Shown here: in pieces, positions 8,757 through 25,875 of the stretch
Layout: every line of letters starts with the position of its first letter
How positions within the stretch are numbered: position 1 is the stretch's first letter
Assembly: GCF_009184905.1 (NCBI RefSeq)
Contig: NZ_WESC01000009.1
Span: forward strand, 124,001 to 188,000
Source of the DNA: Parvibaculum sedimenti
Lineage (GTDB): Bacteria > Pseudomonadota > Alphaproteobacteria > Parvibaculales > Parvibaculaceae
DNA: 64,000 bases
Reading direction: 5' to 3'
The notes under the pieces: model-generated
Told to the model about the DNA's origin: nothing
Databases searched by the model: none
The model's input: the letters and a program-made list of their open reading frames with translations, nothing else
Position numbers and translations under genes: made by a program

Positions 8757-9374
8757 ATGAAACTGTACAATTCCGTCGGCCCGAACCCGCGCGTCGTGCG
8801 CATGTTCATGAAGGAAAAGGGCATCGAGCTTCCCCTTGAGGCCATCGACCTCATGAAGGGCGACAATCGCCGCGAACCCTATCTGTCGAAGAATCCCTCC
8901 GGCCAGCTTCCGGCACTCGAACTCGACAATGGGCTCGTCCTCGCCGAAATCACGGCCATCTGCGAATATCTCGACGAGAAGTTCCCGGCCAATCCGCTGA
9001 TCGGCTCGACGCCCGAGGAACGCGCCGAGACGCGGATGTGGACGCGCCGCGTCGATCTCAAGATCTGCGAGCCGCTGACCATGGGCTTCCGCTATGCCGA
9101 GGGGCTCGGCCTCTTCAAGGAGCGCATGCGCTGCCTGCCTGAAGCGGCGGCGGGCCTCAAGGCCATCGCGCAGGACGGGCTTGCCTGGCTCGACGGGCAG
9201 CTTGAGGGCCGCGAGTTCATTGCCGGCAAGCGACTGACGCTCGCCGACATTCTGCTTTTCGGCTTCCTCGACTTCGGCATCGTGGTCGGTCAGCCGCTCG
9301 ATCCCGCGAACAAGAATGTGCTCGCCTGGTTCGAGCGCATGAAGGCCCGCCCGAGCGCGGCGGCTTCCGCCTGA
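8757..9374 (+). CDS. Glutathione S-transferase family protein
   Basis: 205 residues with the two-domain GST fold. The thioredoxin-like N-terminal half (1-80) contains NSVGPNPRVVRMFMKEKG, the cis-Pro segment GQLPALEL and the glutathione-contacting LAEITAICEYLDE. The all-helical C-terminal half ends with LTLADILLFGFLDF, the N-capping and hydrophobic-staple region. It conjugates or reduces electrophiles with glutathione in the cytoplasm; the specific substrate is unknown. The ATG at 8757 follows GGGAGGACTTA, a strong ribosome site. A clear intrinsic terminator follows the gene. Confidence 0.92.
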   Translation: MKLYNSVGPNPRVVRMFMKEKGIELPLEAIDLMKGDNRREPYLSKNPSGQLPALELDNGLVLAEITAICEYLDEKFPANPLIGSTPEERAETRMWTRRVDLKICEPLTMGFRYAEGLGLFKERMRCLPEAAAGLKAIAQDGLAWLDGQLEGREFIAGKRLTLADILLFGFLDFGIVVGQPLDPANKNVLAWFERMKARPSAAASA

Positions 9375-9917: not shown

Positions 9918-10334
9918 GTGACCGACATCTCGCCCGACAATGCGCTTGATCCCGACTGGGAGTCTCCGGCCGCCGTCACGCTCGGCAAGAAGGTTCTGGA
10001 GCTCGATCCGGCGCGGGGCTATGTCCGCGCCTCCTATTACGCTGGCGACAATTTCGTCAATCGCGGCGGGCGCATCTATGGCGGTTTCCTCGCCGCCATG
10101 CTCGACGGGCTTTGCGGTCACGCGGTACGGCTCACCCATCGCGAGCCGGGTACGCCGCAGGTCACGCTGGAACTCAAAACCAGCTTCATCGGCCGGGCCG
10201 ACAAGGGCACCCTGACCGGAGAGGGCTGGGTGCGCCATCGCGGCAAGTCGATCGCCTTCGCTGAGGCCGAATTGCGCAACGAGCAGGGCGAGATCGTCGC
10301 CCGCGCCAGCGCGACCTTCAAGATCGGCGCCTGA
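9918..10334 (+). CDS. PaaI-like hotdog-fold thioesterase
   Basis: 138 residues of the hotdog thioesterase superfamily (PaaI/YbgC-like). The active-site helix is NRGGRIYGGFLAAMLDG (about 50-66), with an Asp in the position that serves as the acid/base in this family. The C-terminal strands contain LELKTSFIGRA and the usual RASATFKI ending. Members hydrolyse acyl-CoA thioesters. The GTG at 9918 follows GGAGGATCGACGAC. Substrate is unassigned. Confidence 0.85.
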   Translation: MTDISPDNALDPDWESPAAVTLGKKVLELDPARGYVRASYYAGDNFVNRGGRIYGGFLAAMLDGLCGHAVRLTHREPGTPQVTLELKTSFIGRADKGTLTGEGWVRHRGKSIAFAEAELRNEQGEIVARASATFKIGA

Positions 10335-10362
10335 CTCCTCAACGCTTCCATTTTTAATAATA

Positions 10363-10377
10363 AAGAACTTGCTTAAC
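10363..10377 (+). promoter_or_regulatory. First copy of a direct repeat in the ArsR promoter
   Basis: AAGAACTTGCTTAAC matches the second copy at 10397-10411 at 13 of 15 bases (AAGnACnTGCTTAAC). The copies are 34 bases apart, about three helical turns. Two such sites on one face of the helix fit autoregulation by the ArsR-family dimer encoded immediately downstream. Confidence 0.5.
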
Positions 10378-10396
10378 TATCGTCGCCGCGATACTA

Positions 10397-10411
10397 AAGC
10401 ACATGCTTAAC
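10397..10411 (+). promoter_or_regulatory. Second direct-repeat copy, overlapping the ArsR start codon
   Basis: AAGCACATGCTTAAC contains the internal dyad AAGCA-ca-TGCTT, and its ATG is the start codon of the regulator gene at 10403. Binding here would block initiation directly. Confidence 0.5.
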
Positions 10412-10747
10412 CAATTGACCCAACTCGACAAGGCCTTTCAGGCACTCGCTGACCCGACCCGCCGGGCGATGGTGGAGCGTCTGGCGCGCGGCCCGGTCTC
10501 GGTCAGCGACCTCGCGCGGCCGCTCGACATGTCGCTGCCGGCGGTGATGCAGCACCTCGCTGTGCTGGAAAGCTCAGGCCTCGTCCAGTCGCGGAAGGTC
10601 GGTCGCGTTCGCACCTGTCAGATCAATCCGGAGGCGCTCAGCGCCGCAGAGCAGTGGATCAATCAACGGCGGATCGAGTGGGAACACCGCCTCGACCGGC
10701 TGGGCCAGTATCTCGAAACATTGAAGACCGAAGGAGAGAAAAAATGA
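10403..10747 (+). CDS. ArsR-family transcriptional regulator (SRPBCC-linked type)
   Basis: 114 residues, a winged helix regulator. LADPTRRAMVERLARG opens the domain and VSDLARPLDMSLPAVMQHLAVLE is the recognition helix region. The metal-binding ELCVCDL motif of classical ArsR is absent. This is the non-metal subclass that pairs with SRPBCC (AHSA1-like) proteins, as confirmed by the gene overlapping its stop codon (ATGA). The C-terminal helix RRIEWEHRLDRLGQYLE would dimerise. A direct repeat over its promoter and start codon suggests autorepression. Confidence 0.93.
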   Translation: MLNQLTQLDKAFQALADPTRRAMVERLARGPVSVSDLARPLDMSLPAVMQHLAVLESSGLVQSRKVGRVRTCQINPEALSAAEQWINQRRIEWEHRLDRLGQYLETLKTEGEKK

Positions 10748-11670
10748 GCACGTCGCCAGTTCGGATTGCCCGCACCTTTCCCACCTTGCGCGAAACGGTA
10801 TTCAAGGCATGGAGTTCCACCGATCATGTGAAGCGCTGGTTCGCACCGTCCGGCTTCACCATACCGCATGCAAAAGTGCAGATGCATGTCGGCGGCCCTT
10901 TTGAGGTCTGCATGCGCGGGCCGGACGGAACGGATTACTGGACGCGCGGAACCTTTACGGAAGTCTCTCCGGTCGACCGGCTCGTGCTGGATCTTTACGC
11001 CGAAGACCTGAGCGGCCATCGCTTATTCCGTGCACGAACGGAAGTGACTTTCGCCGACGCCGTCGGCGGCACGCACATGGAAGTCGTGCAGAGCTACACA
11101 GTGCTTGATCCGAACGCCGCGCCGATGATTGAGGGCGCCCCCGTCGGCTGGAACCAGACGCTGGAACGGCTCGAAGCCGAGATCGCGCGAATGGACGGAA
11201 AAGCCGAAGCGCCGCGCTCCGTCGTGCATTCCATGTTTCATCTCGAACGTACCTATGATGCGCCGATTCATCGCGTCTTCGAGGCATTCTCGACCGAGGC
11301 CGGCAAGTCCCGGTGGTTCGGCGGCGAGGCTGGCCAGTGGGAATCTCTTGAACGGCACATGGACTTTCGCGTCGGTGGCACCGAGCGGGCGAGTGGCCGC
11401 TGGCAAGGCGGCGTGGTCTCGACCTTCGACGCGATCTACCACGACATCATTCCGATGGAACGGATCGTCTATACCTATGAGATGCATCTCGACGACAAGA
11501 AGATTTCAGTGTCACTCGCAACGATCCAGTTCAAGCGCGTCAACGATGGCCGCACCACGCTGAAGATCACGGAGCAGGGTGCCTTCCTCGACGGCTACGA
11601 CGACGCGGGGTCGCGCGAAGAGGGCACCGCCGGGCTTCTGGATCGGCTAGCCGCTTCGCTAAAACGATGA
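10744..11670 (+). CDS. Tandem SRPBCC (AHSA1-like) protein, two domains fused
   Basis: 308 residues containing two successive AHSA1-type SRPBCC domains. The first (about 1-150) starts ARTFPTLRETVFKAWSS and has RWFAPSGF and GGPFEVCMRGPDG. The second (about 160-308) starts ERTYDAPIHRVFEAFS and has SRWFGGEAG and FRVGGTERASGRW. Each has the family ending with a Trp or aromatic-containing helix (GWNQTLERLEAEI; GLLDRLAASL). SRPBCC domains form a deep hydrophobic cavity that binds small ligands. The gene overlaps the ArsR stop by four bases, so the two are translationally coupled. Usual partners of this regulator class are single-domain proteins of 140-160 residues, so the fusion is notable. Confidence 0.9.
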   Translation: MSTSPVRIARTFPTLRETVFKAWSSTDHVKRWFAPSGFTIPHAKVQMHVGGPFEVCMRGPDGTDYWTRGTFTEVSPVDRLVLDLYAEDLSGHRLFRARTEVTFADAVGGTHMEVVQSYTVLDPNAAPMIEGAPVGWNQTLERLEAEIARMDGKAEAPRSVVHSMFHLERTYDAPIHRVFEAFSTEAGKSRWFGGEAGQWESLERHMDFRVGGTERASGRWQGGVVSTFDAIYHDIIPMERIVYTYEMHLDDKKISVSLATIQFKRVNDGRTTLKITEQGAFLDGYDDAGSREEGTAGLLDRLAASLKR

Positions 11671-12183
11671 GCCAAAGCAAATAGGCGAGCAGCGCCCGAC
11701 GAAGATGCGCAATATAAAATCATCATAATCCTTTAATAATTATGCAGATATTCCGCAATTAGGCAATAATTAGGGGCTTTTGGCAGCGGTTGCGTAGCTA
11801 AGGGTGGCCATGTCGGATGATTGGCGGGGTATTTTCCGCTTTGCGTCCAATTGTTCCGGTGTGAGGCGGAATACGACAACCCTGAAACCAGACGCGACTT
11901 CAAGCTCGCTCAAGGCCGTTGGATCGACCAAACGTGGGACTTTTCCGCCAGTCCACTTTTGCGCAGCCATCGGTCACGTGCGGACGTCGACGGCCTGCTT
12001 AGCCGCTATGCCGCATATGGAGCCGATCATGCCGGCTGATCGAATTTGCATCGCACGGGATACCAAAGCGGCGGCGTCGGCTCCGCGGCGTCGAATAGCT
12101 GTAACCATCATCGTTGGCTTGCGATGCGCAGCACACGTATCATAGGTTGCAAAACTGACACTCCCCCAAGAGAAGATGTTAAC
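11671..12183. other. Gene-poor AT-richer interval left of the orphan nuclease-like gene
   Basis: About 510 bases without a convincing gene. 11700-11780 is visibly richer in A and T than the surroundings (runs such as TCCTTTAATAATTATGC). One short minus-strand frame (11770-11970) is listed separately. No repeat of the nearby tRNA-Ser 3' end was found here, and no transposase fragment was recognised. Confidence 0.5.
11770..11970 (-). CDS. Possible small protein of unknown function (66 residues)
   Basis: An ATG-initiated frame of 66 residues with balanced composition (VPRLVDPTALSELEVASGF, then VVFRLTPEQLDAKRKIP). No ribosome site precedes the ATG, and no family is recognised. It may be a remnant of acquired DNA or chance. 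Kept because the interval is otherwise empty and the residue composition is not that of a typical antisense shadow. Confidence 0.22.
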   Translation of the reverse strand: MAAQKWTGGKVPRLVDPTALSELEVASGFRVVVFRLTPEQLDAKRKIPRQSSDMATLSYATAAKSP

Positions 12184-13455
12184 GTGCCGAAAGATATCCC
12201 AAGCAAGAAGCTCGCAATCAAGTCGAAGCCGACCAAATCCTCGAAACTGGTCAAGTCTGCAACGCCCAAGCCCGCCGCATCAGCATCGGCGAAGGCGGGT
12301 ACGCCCAAGTCCGCCACCGCGGGAAAGCCTGTTGCAGCCCCCAAGGCTGCTGCCGGCGCGAAGGCCACGGCTGCGCCCACGAAGACTCCGAAACAGCGCG
12401 ATCCGAGCAAGACTGAGCGTAACCGCATCATCAAGGAGATGACGGAAGAACTGCGCGCCATGCAGCCCCTGGTTTTGGAGGAAACCGGGTGGCCGAGCGA
12501 AGCCTCTCTCAATGCGGTCATCGGCGGCAAGGCCGCCGAGTTCATGGACCTTCATCACGAGCAGATTCTATCTGCCGAAGCCTATGTTTCGCTCTACATG
12601 AAAGGCTTTAAGGCGGCGATGGCGCAGCGGGACGCCACCACGCATCGCGAAAATTACGGGCGGCTAAAAAAATCCAAGGTCGCCCAGAAATATTTCATGC
12701 TGTTCCTCAAGCGTTCGTACCTAAAGCATTTCGATGAATATTCGCGCAAGCGCCCCCAACTCTATGAATCGGTGATCTGGATCGGCCAAAACAAGGCAGA
12801 CTACGGCCTGTTCATCACGCCCGTCTGGCGCAAGGGCGAATGGGTCAATGACCGCAGTGAGATCCGACATTTCCCCAAGCGTTACTGGACCATAGGTCAT
12901 GTGATCGAAACAGGGTTGGTCGTTAATGGCGACCCCGACCCCATCATGTTCAATGACATCGAGGCCTACCTTGTGTTCTTTAAGAACACGCTGGTTCGCG
13001 CTTCGGGTTCCCCTTACGAAAGGGAGGTCGCGAATCTCTACGTCGACTTCGTCCGGGCCTCGCCCGAGCCTGAGCATGTGCCACTTCTGATCCCGGAGTT
13101 CCGCTATGGCGGTAAAGCGGCGAAGCACGACTTTCGGCTCGACTTTACCATCATCAACCCCTTCACGATGGAGAGGGTTGGCTTCGAGCTCTCACCTTGG
13201 TCGACGCATGGCTACCTCGCTGGGCTGAAGGGTCTTACACAGGCCAAGATCAACGAGATGGCGAAGGACAATTTTGAGCAGGAGATGAAAAAGCACCGCT
13301 CGTTCTTCGACAAGCACGGCGTCTATGCGCTGATCTATACGGACCAGCAGCTTAAGAATATCCCGGCCTTGTTCACCGAGATGCAGAAATATCTGACGCC
13401 TGTCGACAAGGTTGCGCAGCTCGATTTTGCGCTGCTAAACGCCTTCTTCGCTTGA
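12184..13455 (+). CDS. Orphan protein with histone-like Lys/Ala/Pro tail and possible PD-(D/E)XK-type C-terminal domain
   Basis: 423 residues from the GTG at 12184 (AAGAGAAGA upstream); the frame continues to 12046 but without a better start. Residues about 5-75 are low-complexity Lys/Ala/Pro/Ser/Thr, like a histone H1 or AlgP tail, and would be strongly basic. The rest is globular: a helical middle with SLYMKGFKAAM and KSYLKHFDEYSRKRPQ-like segments, then PEFRYGGKAAKHDFRLDFTI and VGFELSPWSTHG. The order E...D...ExS with a nearby Lys resembles the core of PD-(D/E)XK nucleases, but I cannot confirm that fold. It stands alone between the SRPBCC gene and tRNA-Ser, in DNA of lower GC. A defence or mobile-element role is possible but unproven. 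Confidence 0.6.
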   Translation: MPKDIPSKKLAIKSKPTKSSKLVKSATPKPAASASAKAGTPKSATAGKPVAAPKAAAGAKATAAPTKTPKQRDPSKTERNRIIKEMTEELRAMQPLVLEETGWPSEASLNAVIGGKAAEFMDLHHEQILSAEAYVSLYMKGFKAAMAQRDATTHRENYGRLKKSKVAQKYFMLFLKRSYLKHFDEYSRKRPQLYESVIWIGQNKADYGLFITPVWRKGEWVNDRSEIRHFPKRYWTIGHVIETGLVVNGDPDPIMFNDIEAYLVFFKNTLVRASGSPYEREVANLYVDFVRASPEPEHVPLLIPEFRYGGKAAKHDFRLDFTIINPFTMERVGFELSPWSTHGYLAGLKGLTQAKINEMAKDNFEQEMKKHRSFFDKHGVYALIYTDQQLKNIPALFTEMQKYLTPVDKVAQLDFALLNAFFA

Positions 13456-13575
13456 AGCGCCCCCGCCGGAGACCCAGAAAGTAGGACGGGTTTCGAGGTA
13501 AGTTGCTCCCAGCCCAAATGGCTTCATCTGGTCGGGAGCGGTCGAAGACGTGAAGCCCAAGGGAATGGGCGGGGC

Positions 13576-13663
13576 TGGCGGAAGGGGTGGGATTCGAACC
13601 CACGGATGGTTGCCCATCGCCGGTTTTCAAGACCGGTGCCTTAAACCACTCGGCCACCCTTCC
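13576..13663 (-). tRNA. tRNA-Ser (anticodon TGA)
   Basis: On the minus strand the acceptor stem GGAAGGG pairs with CCCTTCC, with discriminator G and an encoded CCA (13576-13578). The anticodon stem-loop is CCGGTCTTGAAAACCGG, with anticodon TGA, and the T-arm is GTGGGTTCGAATCCCAC. A long variable arm (GATGGGCAACCATC) between anticodon and T-arms marks a class II tRNA, as expected for serine. It reads UCN codons. Confidence 0.97.
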
Positions 13664-13727
13664 ATGAGGAAGCCATTACCGGCTTCGGACGGCTGACTCA
13701 ACAGGGAAACGCTCGCGGGGTGCAAGA

Positions 13728-14525
13728 TTACGCCTTGCCGAAGGCGATTTTCACATGTTCGAGACTGGCTCGCCTAAGCCGGAGGTAAAGGCGCTCGAAG
13801 GGCCGCGCGGTTTCCCGGGTGAGCTTCGCAAGCCCTTTGCGCTTGCGCCGGAGCTCGCGCAGGGACAGGCGAAGGGGCTCAATCGAGCTTGCGAATTCGC
13901 TGGTCTCGTCCAGCTCGCCCAGCCACATCTCCTGAATGCAGAGGGCGGGTTCGAGCTGGAGAACGTCGAGGCTGCCTGAGCCGAGTGCGGCATCGAACAT
14001 CAAATCGTCAATCGCCCGGTCCATGCGCGTCGTCAGATCGAGGAGCCGCCGGGTGCCCTCCCGGCTGACAATGTAGCCTGCCGTGCCCTGATGGCAGGAC
14101 CGCAGGCGCGACAGCGCATGGCCCGGAAAGGCGGGCCTCTTTTTCCGGCTGACCCAGACTCGCTGGCCCATCGTCTCGATCTTGATGACGTCAAAGGGAA
14201 GCAAGGCCCAGTCCTTCGCGGCCTTCAAGGCGGAGCCGAAATCCTCCGCCAGCCGCACATCGTCTTCCAGCACGCAACAAAGCTCTTCATCGCTCGCGAG
14301 GAAGCGCTGTCAGGCGGCGCGATGGCTGAGAAGACAGGCTATCTCGGGCCGGGACAGGTTGATGAGCGGCGCCGGCGAAAGAATGGCAGCCGCGTCTGCG
14401 TCGCTCAGGTTGTCGCCATCGACCGCCCGCATGCGCTCGAACGACAGGCCGCAAGCAGCAAGCTGGGCGTTCATCCGCTCAAGTCTGAGCTTGTGCCGAT
14501 CGAGGTTGACGACGAGAACCAGCAT
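13728..14525 (-). pseudogene. GT25-family (LPS/LOS-type) glycosyltransferase interrupted by in-frame TGA
   Basis: Two frames in the same phase together make a family 25 glycosyltransferase of about 265 residues. The first (14525-14310) gives LVVNLDRHKLRLERM, the FERMRAVDG segment and the LSRPEIACLLSHRAA motif. The second carries the metal-binding VLEDDVRL and AFPGHALSRL, then QGTAGYIVSREGTRRLLDL. They are separated by a single TGA at 14310-14312 followed by an open, family-like stretch (QRFLASDEELCC). In GT25 proteins a Trp normally follows this ALSH segment, so TGG to TGA is the simplest explanation. Either a real nonsense mutation or a sequencing error; no frameshift is needed. Confidence 0.75.
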
Positions 14526-16055: not shown

Positions 16056-16235
16056 GGGCGCTTTCTAGCTCCGTCTGGTCGCGAGGAGCAAGTCATTCGT
16101 CCTGCCCATAAACCATAGTTTTGTTGTGGCCTTTAGAAACCCTTTTGCACCAGGGGTCCTCTGAGCCAGAATGGCACAAAACAAAGTGGCCCGGGAGGAA
16201 CCGGAAAGCCACGCGCGATATTGGGGGGATTAAGC

Positions 16236-16598
16236 GTGTCGGCAGTGGATCTCACATCGACCTGGATTCCTTTGGGAATCCTCGGGGTACTCCTTCTCTA
16301 CATGATCCATCTGTTCCTTCAGGAGCGGAGAATCTCGCGGGAGCTTCTGGCGGCTGAGGCCGTCGCCCCGGCGACGCCTGAACCCATTGAGGCACCCGCC
16401 GTCGCCGCGCCCGTGGTCGAGGCAGCTCCCGTCGAAGCGAAGGTGGCGGAGCCCGTGAGCGAGAAGCCCACGGCAAAGCGCAGCCTGGTCTGGCGGACGG
16501 CCTGGATCTGGCTGCCCTTCCTCATCGGCGTTGGCGGGCAGGCCTATCTCGACCACAAGCCGCTGATCGACCCACTGCTGCAAAAGGCAATGAGCTGA
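16236..16598 (+). CDS. Small membrane protein with Pro/Ala/Glu-rich linker, function unknown
   Basis: 120 residues from a GTG at 16236, chosen because GGGGGGAT lies eight bases upstream. A transmembrane helix at about 9-26 (WIPLGILGVLLLYMIHLFL) is followed by a Pro/Ala/Val/Glu-rich stretch of about 50 residues, then a second hydrophobic segment (TAWIWLPFLIGVGGQAYL). The linker probably crosses or extends into the periplasm or cytoplasm. I do not recognise a family. It ends three bases from the convergent PrpD-family gene. Confidence 0.65.
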   Translation: MSAVDLTSTWIPLGILGVLLLYMIHLFLQERRISRELLAAEAVAPATPEPIEAPAVAAPVVEAAPVEAKVAEPVSEKPTAKRSLVWRTAWIWLPFLIGVGGQAYLDHKPLIDPLLQKAMS

Positions 16599-25074: not shown

Positions 25075-25875
25075 ATGGCGGTTCTGGTCGACAGTCATTG
25101 CCATCTCGACTTTCCGGACTTCGCGTCGGAAGTGGATGAGGTCGTGTCGCGCGCGCACGACGCAGGCGTCGGCCTCATGGTGACGATTTCGACAAAGATC
25201 TCGCAGTTCGACCGCATTGTCGCCATCGCCGAGCGCTTCCCGAACGTCTATTGCACGGTCGGCATTCATCCGCATGAAGCGGCGAGCGAACCCGATACGG
25301 ATACGGCGCGGCTGGTCGAGCTTGCGCGGCATCCCAAGGTCGTCGGCATTGGCGAAACCGGTCTCGATTATTTTTATGAGCATGCGCCGCGTGACGCGCA
25401 GAAACGCGCATTCCGCGCTCACATCGGCGCGGCGCGTGAAACGCAATTACCGCTCGTCGTGCATACGCGCGATGCGGACGCCGACACCGCCGATCTGTTG
25501 ACGGAGGAAATGGGGAAGGGTGCGTTTCCGGGCCTTCTGCATTGCTTCACGTCGAGCCGCAAGCTCGCGGAAGAGGCGCTGGCGCTCGGCTTCTACATCT
25601 CGATGTCCGGCATCGTGACATTCAAGAGTGCCGCCGAATTGCAGGAAACGGTGCGCCATGTACCGCTGGAGCGGCTGCTGGTCGAGACGGATTCACCTTA
25701 TCTCGCGCCGATCCCGAAGCGCGGCAAACGCAACGAGCCGTCTTTCGTCGTGCATACGGCGGCGAAAGTCGCGGAACTGAAGGGCGTCTCGGCCGATACG
25801 CTTGCCGATACGACGAGCGAGAATTTCCTGCGGCTCTTTTCCCGCGTTCCGCGCGAGGCTGTGTTCGCCAAATGA
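25075..25875 (+). CDS. tatD: TatD-family metal-dependent hydrolase (DNase)
   Basis: 266 residues of the amidohydrolase-like TIM barrel. Metal-site motifs are DSHCHLDF near the N-terminus, GIGETGLDYF, VVHTRDAD, LLHCFTSS and VETDSPYLAPIP. TatD proteins are 3'-5' exonucleases involved in DNA repair and degradation. The gene follows metG by two bases and overlaps the next by four (ATGA), so it belongs to the same operon. Confidence 0.93.
   Translation: MAVLVDSHCHLDFPDFASEVDEVVSRAHDAGVGLMVTISTKISQFDRIVAIAERFPNVYCTVGIHPHEAASEPDTDTARLVELARHPKVVGIGETGLDYFYEHAPRDAQKRAFRAHIGAARETQLPLVVHTRDADADTADLLTEEMGKGAFPGLLHCFTSSRKLAEEALALGFYISMSGIVTFKSAAELQETVRHVPLERLLVETDSPYLAPIPKRGKRNEPSFVVHTAAKVAELKGVSADTLADTTSENFLRLFSRVPREAVFAK

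Follow-up and report, generated by a model that had tools for sequence, protein, structure and literature searches.

The gene and its basic tail

The question raised by this locus is whether an isolated ORF beside a tRNA-Ser gene of Parvibaculum sedimenti encodes an undescribed defence nuclease. The window, that is, the whole stretch of DNA analyzed, comprises 64,000 nucleotides of contig NZ_WESC01000009.1, and coordinates refer to it unless another locus is named. A 423-aa ORF at 12184-13455 with a basic tail and a globular region had been described in a first-pass annotation, and this description was borne out. The gene is divided as follows.

12184-13455, + strand: gene of an unnamed family, 423 aa plus stop, GTG start, homologues found
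12184-12396, + strand: tail, residues 1-71, rich in Lys, Ala, Pro, Ser and Thr, basic, not conserved
12397-12933, + strand: N-terminal domain, residues 72-250, conserved, of no known family (WIGQN..DYG, SEIRHF...YWTIGH)
12934-13452, + strand: predicted Vsr-like PD-(D/E)XK nuclease domain, residues 251-423

The sequence GAGAAGA lies just 5' of the GTG start. Lys, Ala, Pro, Ser and Thr make up 83% of residues 1-71, which carry a net charge of +15. The full 71-aa tail was present only in the window copy, and the tail of the Sphingobium homologue was shorter (about 35 aa). The tail was absent from the Bosea, Rhizobium and Tritonibacter copies, the start of the last being taken as the TTG at 8992 for this comparison, and from the N-terminal piece of the P. 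aeruginosa copy. A conserved basic tail of the kind seen in bacterial histone-like basic proteins was thus not found, as only one of the five homologues has a tail. Missing from 4/5 homologues, the histone-like tail is a feature of the lineage rather than the core of the gene, and the earlier view of the tail as a defining part of the protein was not upheld.

The GC content of the gene core was 55.0% and that of the upstream gap 53.4%, while the other window genes measured had 59.7-66.5%. The more AT-rich DNA that had been noted here was therefore confirmed in part. However, the third-position GC of the gene (73.4%) was inside the range of the other window genes (72.3-82.0%), near its low end, which indicates that much of the GC difference reflects amino-acid composition.

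The protein gave no credible match in the family libraries, the best E-values being 9.4 in Pfam (DUF6465), 0.074 in PADLOC, 0.35 in PHROGs and 1 in NCBIfam. The library matches of the whole protein fall or begin in the low-complexity tail. The PADLOC 2.0.0 value is that of TmtA (residues 13-137), the sole hit, and no system model of that collection was credibly matched. None of the five homologue cores had a Pfam match. Against PDB sequences, the best E-value was 9.5 for the protein and 0.93 for a profile of the five cores.

Homologues, selection and distribution

Homologues were searched for with the core (residues 72-423) as query. They were found in Bosea sp. WAO, Sphingobium sp. TomTYG65, Rhizobium sp. 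AB2/73, Tritonibacter mobilis F1926 and a Pseudomonas aeruginosa plasmid, giving five loci beside the window; the two Rhizobium sp. AB2/73 records are of one strain and were counted once. The gene had been called an orphan, which holds for the family libraries but not for these five loci. Identity to the window core was 69% in Bosea, 70% in Sphingobium, 55% in Rhizobium and 52% in Tritonibacter. The P. aeruginosa copy is in two pieces, with identities of 46% and 55%. These pieces (L007 1427-2044 and 8977-9522) are interrupted by IS66 and a mercury-resistance (mer) region.

Synonymous divergence (NG86) could be estimated in 2/10 pairs, the other eight giving no value. The dN/dS values were 0.20/2.27 for the window against Sphingobium and 0.39/2.37 for the window against Rhizobium. 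The low dN/dS in the two estimable pairs showed that the gene is under purifying selection. Together with four homologues 52-70% identical over the core, this argues for a real gene, beyond chance.

The distribution of the gene was investigated in several genome sets. Among 98 relatives, the only match was in the window's own genome, and the same was seen among 40 genomes of the window's order, a set overlapping the 98. The class search (385 genomes) and the phylum search (398 genomes) each returned the window's own genome and one match judged spurious (L008 and L010, respectively). These two weak matches were rejected because they overlap longer ORFs that look real by eye and have 1 and 2 in-frame stops. 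Among 397 genomes of the order of Bosea, Bosea itself was found, as was one 57-residue match (L017, E 1.4e-4) that was left out of the homologue count. Viral contigs contained no relatives by protein, by alignment or by one DNA pattern, and the window query matched nothing in phage records at E<=1. With the Tritonibacter query, matches of 53 residues to T4-like phages (E 0.4-0.6) were obtained and taken as noise; the H38 phage match was on the strand opposite the annotated genes. The family is rare and very sporadic, and the gene probably moves horizontally between distant bacteria.

A variable slot beside tRNA-Ser

The adjoining tRNA and the accessory interval that holds the gene are located as follows.

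13576-13663, - strand: tRNA-Ser(tga), anchor of the variable slot, 120 bp past the stop of the gene
10335-13575, no strand assigned: accessory interval between the thioesterase gene and tRNA-Ser, three genes

The interval was compared with the stretches of ten of the 26 other relatives in the genus search. Of these ten, nine had the thioesterase gene (9918-10334) and seven the gene at 16221-16598. Both were present in six; in the other four, one flank is missing or the stretch stops close to it. Besides the target gene, the window interval encodes an ArsR-type regulator and an AHSA1 protein, and its three genes had no match in the ten stretches. In a sister species (G004), the slot contained an HNH endonuclease (PADLOC HNH, E 8.5e-18) and a SnoaL-like gene; in another relative (G015), it held about 15 kb whose ORFs resemble nucleotide-sugar and glycan genes. 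In the genus, the tRNA-Ser stretch is a variable slot flanked by two conserved genes. The tRNA that had been noted beside the gene is thus confirmed, and the proposal of acquired DNA at this site is supported, given the absence of the gene from relatives and the variable slot content. The HNH protein of the sister-species slot (L085 9808-10707) was 69% identical over 303 aa to an HNH protein of the Rhizobium plasmid (L005 2586-3560), which lies about 5.4 kb from the homologue of the target gene. This identity suggests that the slot and the island may be supplied from a common pool.

No integrase or transposase was recognised in the window interval. At 11000-14400, a single pair of direct repeats of at least 14 nt was present (11148 and 11882), and it does not flank the gene. 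A duplication of the tRNA end was looked for as an integration scar, and none was found.

Two further observations were made around the slot. Among the fetched relatives (L078-L087), nine show the thioesterase gene. The tRNA-Ser(tga) was next to it and on the same strand in five of them (L078, L079, L083, L084 and L087), and the strand was opposite in the other four and in the window. A glycosyltransferase family 25 ORF at 13728-14273 matched only the end of the Pfam model (92-199 of 199), so this ORF may be truncated or start further upstream.

A probable Vsr-like nuclease domain at the C-terminus

An E...D...ExS pattern similar to PD-(D/E)XK cores had been noted in the globular region. We found it as E279, D320 and E335-L-S337, invariant in 6/6 C-terminal sequences. 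The candidate active-site residues are listed here.

13018-13020, + strand: E279, helix glutamate (SPYE), candidate active-site residue, aligned with SPFE of MTES_1575
13141-13143, + strand: D320 (RLDF), candidate metal-binding Asp, aligned with RIDL of MTES_1575
13186-13188, + strand: E335 (FELSPWSTHG), candidate Glu of an E-x-S replacing E-x-K/E-x-D, aligned with GIECDG of MTES_1575
13207-13209, + strand: H342, candidate equivalent of the His in Vsr-like E-x-DG-x-x-H

The invariant positions were E279, D320, the run E335-L-S-P-W-S-T-H342-G, Q353 and N357. The helix Glu, strand Asp, strand Glu and His were in the Vsr-like order in all six sequences, with H342 in or beside the aligned His column depending on the Vsr-like set. 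The E-x-D-G motif of Vsr-like and MTES_1575 domains was not found in any of the six, all of which have E-L-S-P. By eye, SPYEREVA, FRLDFTIINP and GFELSPWSTHG parallel SPFEEAVA, FRIDLGIVHP and GVECDGATYH of MTES_1575 domains.

Profile comparisons were carried out with several sets of nuclease sequences. The first comparison of the C-terminal domain with DUF559 (20 loci cut out by the E-x-D-G-x-x-H pattern) gave a score of 17.58, which was reached by 0/60 shuffles. When uncleaned sets and fresh shuffles were used, 4/100 shuffles for DUF559, 7/100 for TnsA (after 3/17 rows, L154, L159 and L162, had been dropped) and 1/100 for MTES_1575 reached the real score. After this comparison, in which the uncleaned sets did not separate from shuffles, cleaned Vsr-like sets were built from loci L118-L147 (PF18741 matches), with segments picked by a D...E-x-D pattern. 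Eight MTES_1575-type sequences (L120-L122, L124-L126, L130 and L132) and 14 DUF559-like sequences (L133-L146) were kept. L119, L123, L128 and L129 were dropped as wrongly excised and L147 as aberrant, while L118, L127 and L131 were not excised by the script. L127 is in the window's own genome (contig C17) and is a near-full MTES_1575 match (1-89 of 96, E 2.2e-33).

With hhalign, the six C-terminal sequences scored 26.48 against the cleaned MTES_1575 set (8 sequences) and 25.73 against the combined MTES_1575 and DUF559-type set (22 sequences). Neither score was reached by any of 200 column shuffles, which had maxima of 21.11 and 20.89, respectively. The default MTES_1575 alignment covered 17 columns, and a relaxed setting gave 109 columns with Glu, Asp and Glu in register. 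The hhalign probability against the cleaned Vsr-like sets was 18-19%. The same domain was also compared with 25 unrelated window families (14 alignments and 11 extra, seven of the extra being single sequences), which scored at most 22.22 with the domain as query. When the MTES_1575 set was run against unrelated families, its maxima were 18.97 (14 families) and 23.85 (a further 11). In the other search direction, in which the domain served as template, MTES_1575 scored 24.74 and the combined set 21.8, each reached by 0/100 shuffles. However, one of the 25 unrelated families (window 25075-25875) scored 27.54 over 28 columns, above MTES_1575. That family also beat its own 100 shuffles; its high score was taken as chance, and it indicates that such scores can arise without kinship. 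With HMMER, among 32 proteins, 6/6 target domains ranked top with the MTES_1575 model and 5/6 with the combined model, at E-values of 0.02-0.5, none of them significant alone.

The PD-(D/E)XK idea of the first-pass annotation is moderately strengthened by the Glu, Asp and Glu in register and the shuffle comparison, and weakened by the one unrelated family that scored higher in one direction. Residue order and invariance weigh as much as profile scores here, and judged from these the C-terminal domain quite likely has a Vsr-like PD-(D/E)XK nuclease fold.

Structure prediction by AlphaFold was of low confidence, with a mean pLDDT of 46.6 for the core and 49.4 for the C-terminal domain. The low-confidence core model (pLDDT 46.6) has a helix followed by three strands. 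Foldseek against PDB with the poor C-terminal domain model gave nothing at E<=0.001 (best E 0.88), and no weight was placed on this outcome because the model was poor.

The target matches neither Pfam family of this group. Like MTES_1575 (PF18741), it has in one order a helix Glu in S-P-[FY]-E, an [RI]-D strand and a G-x-E strand. In contrast to MTES_1575, it has no Pfam match, carries ELSPW in place of E-C-D-G and has a longer stretch ahead of the last helix. It also bears a new N-terminal domain, whereas MTES_1575 occurs in a giant helicase protein; in PMC3710099, the MTES_1575 REase is described as a domain of the Vsr fold that occurs in HEPN/SF-I helicase/wHTH conflict proteins. With DUF559 (PF04480), the Asp, Glu and His align in order, with a weak score. 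DUF559 differs in that its segments carry E-x-D-G-x-x-H, although they were excised by that motif.

Defence genes lie near most homologues

The gene neighbourhoods of the homologues were analyzed. In Bosea, LmuA (Cap4 nuclease), LmuC and LmuB (Lamassu-like), an AbiJ-type Abi_C protein and DarT were found within about 6 kb downstream, and the upstream genes looked metabolic by eye. In Rhizobium, AbiEi, AbiEii and an Abi_C protein lie upstream on the same strand, the Abi_C gene ending 45 bp before the homologue. An HNH gene and an annotated class I DNA methyltransferase with an S subunit (type I genes) lie further up, and an LmuB/PtuA-like ATPase is encoded downstream on the other strand. In Sphingobium, the genes just upstream on the same strand encode a small unknown protein and, 0.8 kb upstream, a type IIG enzyme; choline dehydrogenase and GroEL genes lie further out. 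Four same-strand hypothetical proteins around the Sphingobium copy (L004 8115-8831 and 10202-12504) had no Pfam or PADLOC match at E<=0.01 and are possible further unknown defence genes. The P. aeruginosa plasmid carries type III res and mod genes beyond the C-terminal piece, followed by an annotated SIR2 gene. In Tritonibacter, TniQ lies just upstream, HNH proteins are nearby and PADLOC matches were weak only (HNH, ZorE model). A TnsA-like protein about 3.7 kb away scored 26.0 bits, just under the Pfam cut-off of 26.5.

PADLOC matches to RM, Abi, Lmu or DarT genes were thus present at 4/5 homologue loci, a repeated defence-gene neighbourhood. The window copy is adjoined by no known defence gene. 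As a control, 300 annotated rows in six 50-kb stretches (three annotated plasmids) were examined by gene names. Names of restriction, DNA methyltransferase and abortive infection genes were absent, and the genes present were two for thermonucleases and one each for DndB, a PIN toxin, an HNH protein and a UvrD helicase. One flank looked metabolic or housekeeping at the Bosea, Sphingobium and Tritonibacter loci; a consistent location in core metabolic operons, which would have spoken against the earlier proposal, was not seen.

BLASTP (E<=1e-5, ORFs of at least 100 aa) revealed no partner gene recurring across the five loci. Besides the target, what recurred was its antisense shadow and one short match between ORFs located within or next to transposase regions. 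Domain models of Abi_C and of LmuB-like ATPases gave hits near both the Bosea and the Rhizobium homologues, so a distant recurring partner is possible. AbiJ/Abi_C proteins (PF14355) share these defence islands with two target homologues, and the target does not match their models.

Proposed function and alternatives

We lean, by a modest degree, towards a rare, horizontally moving, single-gene phage-defence nuclease with a Vsr-like domain and a new N-terminal domain. The defence role that had been suggested earlier is supported by neighbourhood, namely the defence genes at four of the five homologue loci, five being a small number. More tentatively, and with somewhat less than even confidence, we propose an undescribed single-gene anti-phage system that joins a new N-terminal sensor to a nuclease of divergent Vsr-like type with an E-x-S site. 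Mobile elements would have carried this system across alphaproteobacterial orders and into Pseudomonas.

Homology, residue invariance, purifying selection, the variable tRNA slot and the defence-gene neighbourhoods are shown by the data, and the nuclease fold is supported by profile comparison. We infer sensing, cleavage, mode of action, phage target and tail function as follows. The C-terminal 173 residues would form a Vsr-like PD-(D/E)XK DNA endonuclease using E279, D320, E335 and H342. The strongly conserved N-terminal domain (72-250) may sense what is cut, in a putative recognition role, and the sensed target would most likely be a property of invading DNA, for example a base modification, a mismatch or a structure. 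The basic tail would be an optional extension, probably raising non-specific DNA affinity. Since no methyltransferase travels with the gene, modification-dependent (type IV-like) or abortive cleavage appears likelier than classical type II restriction.

Alternatively, the protein could be a Vsr-like endonuclease of DNA repair or DNA handling (mismatch or damage repair), carried as accessory cargo rather than as a defence gene. We consider this unlikely. The very sporadic distribution and the defence-gene surroundings at 4/5 loci fit it poorly, and no methyltransferase recurs beside the gene, although the closest profile is Vsr-like. The Caulobacter DUF559 protein VsrA is proposed, in PMC12907096, to be a mismatch-repair endonuclease. 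The same source ties VsrA functionally to an unlinked cytosine methyltransferase and links this DUF559 Vsr-like protein to DNA damage once the solitary cytosine methyltransferase is removed. The Caulobacter result keeps the repair explanation alive.

A nuclease of a mobile element, TnsA-like or homing-like, might help DNA to move rather than defend the cell. The TnsA-like N-terminal endonuclease (PF08722) belongs to the PD-(D/E)XK class, the Tritonibacter copy lies just downstream of TniQ with the TnsA-like gene close by, and the uncleaned TnsA profile scored like DUF559. However, TniQ is beside only one of the five homologues, the window interval is devoid of a recognised transposase or integrase and of a bounding direct repeat, and the Tn7 TnsA comparison was not above shuffles, so we rate this explanation as quite improbable. 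The least probable in our estimate is that the gene is the restriction half of a type II-like system with a methyltransferase elsewhere, or encodes a toxin whose antitoxin went unrecognised. In favour of this explanation are the type IIG, type III and AbiE genes adjacent in three loci and the Abi_C proteins near two homologues. Against it, BLASTP detected no recurring neighbour, and the RM genes that adjoin the homologues come with nuclease parts of their own.

As one gene without an evident partner, the preferred candidate, a phage-defence nuclease, could easily be tested in a laboratory strain, and the residues to mutate follow from the Vsr-like reading. If this reading is right, it would add a defence family that is lacking from PADLOC 2.0.0 and from the Pfam copy used, and one with a conserved N-terminal domain of a new kind.
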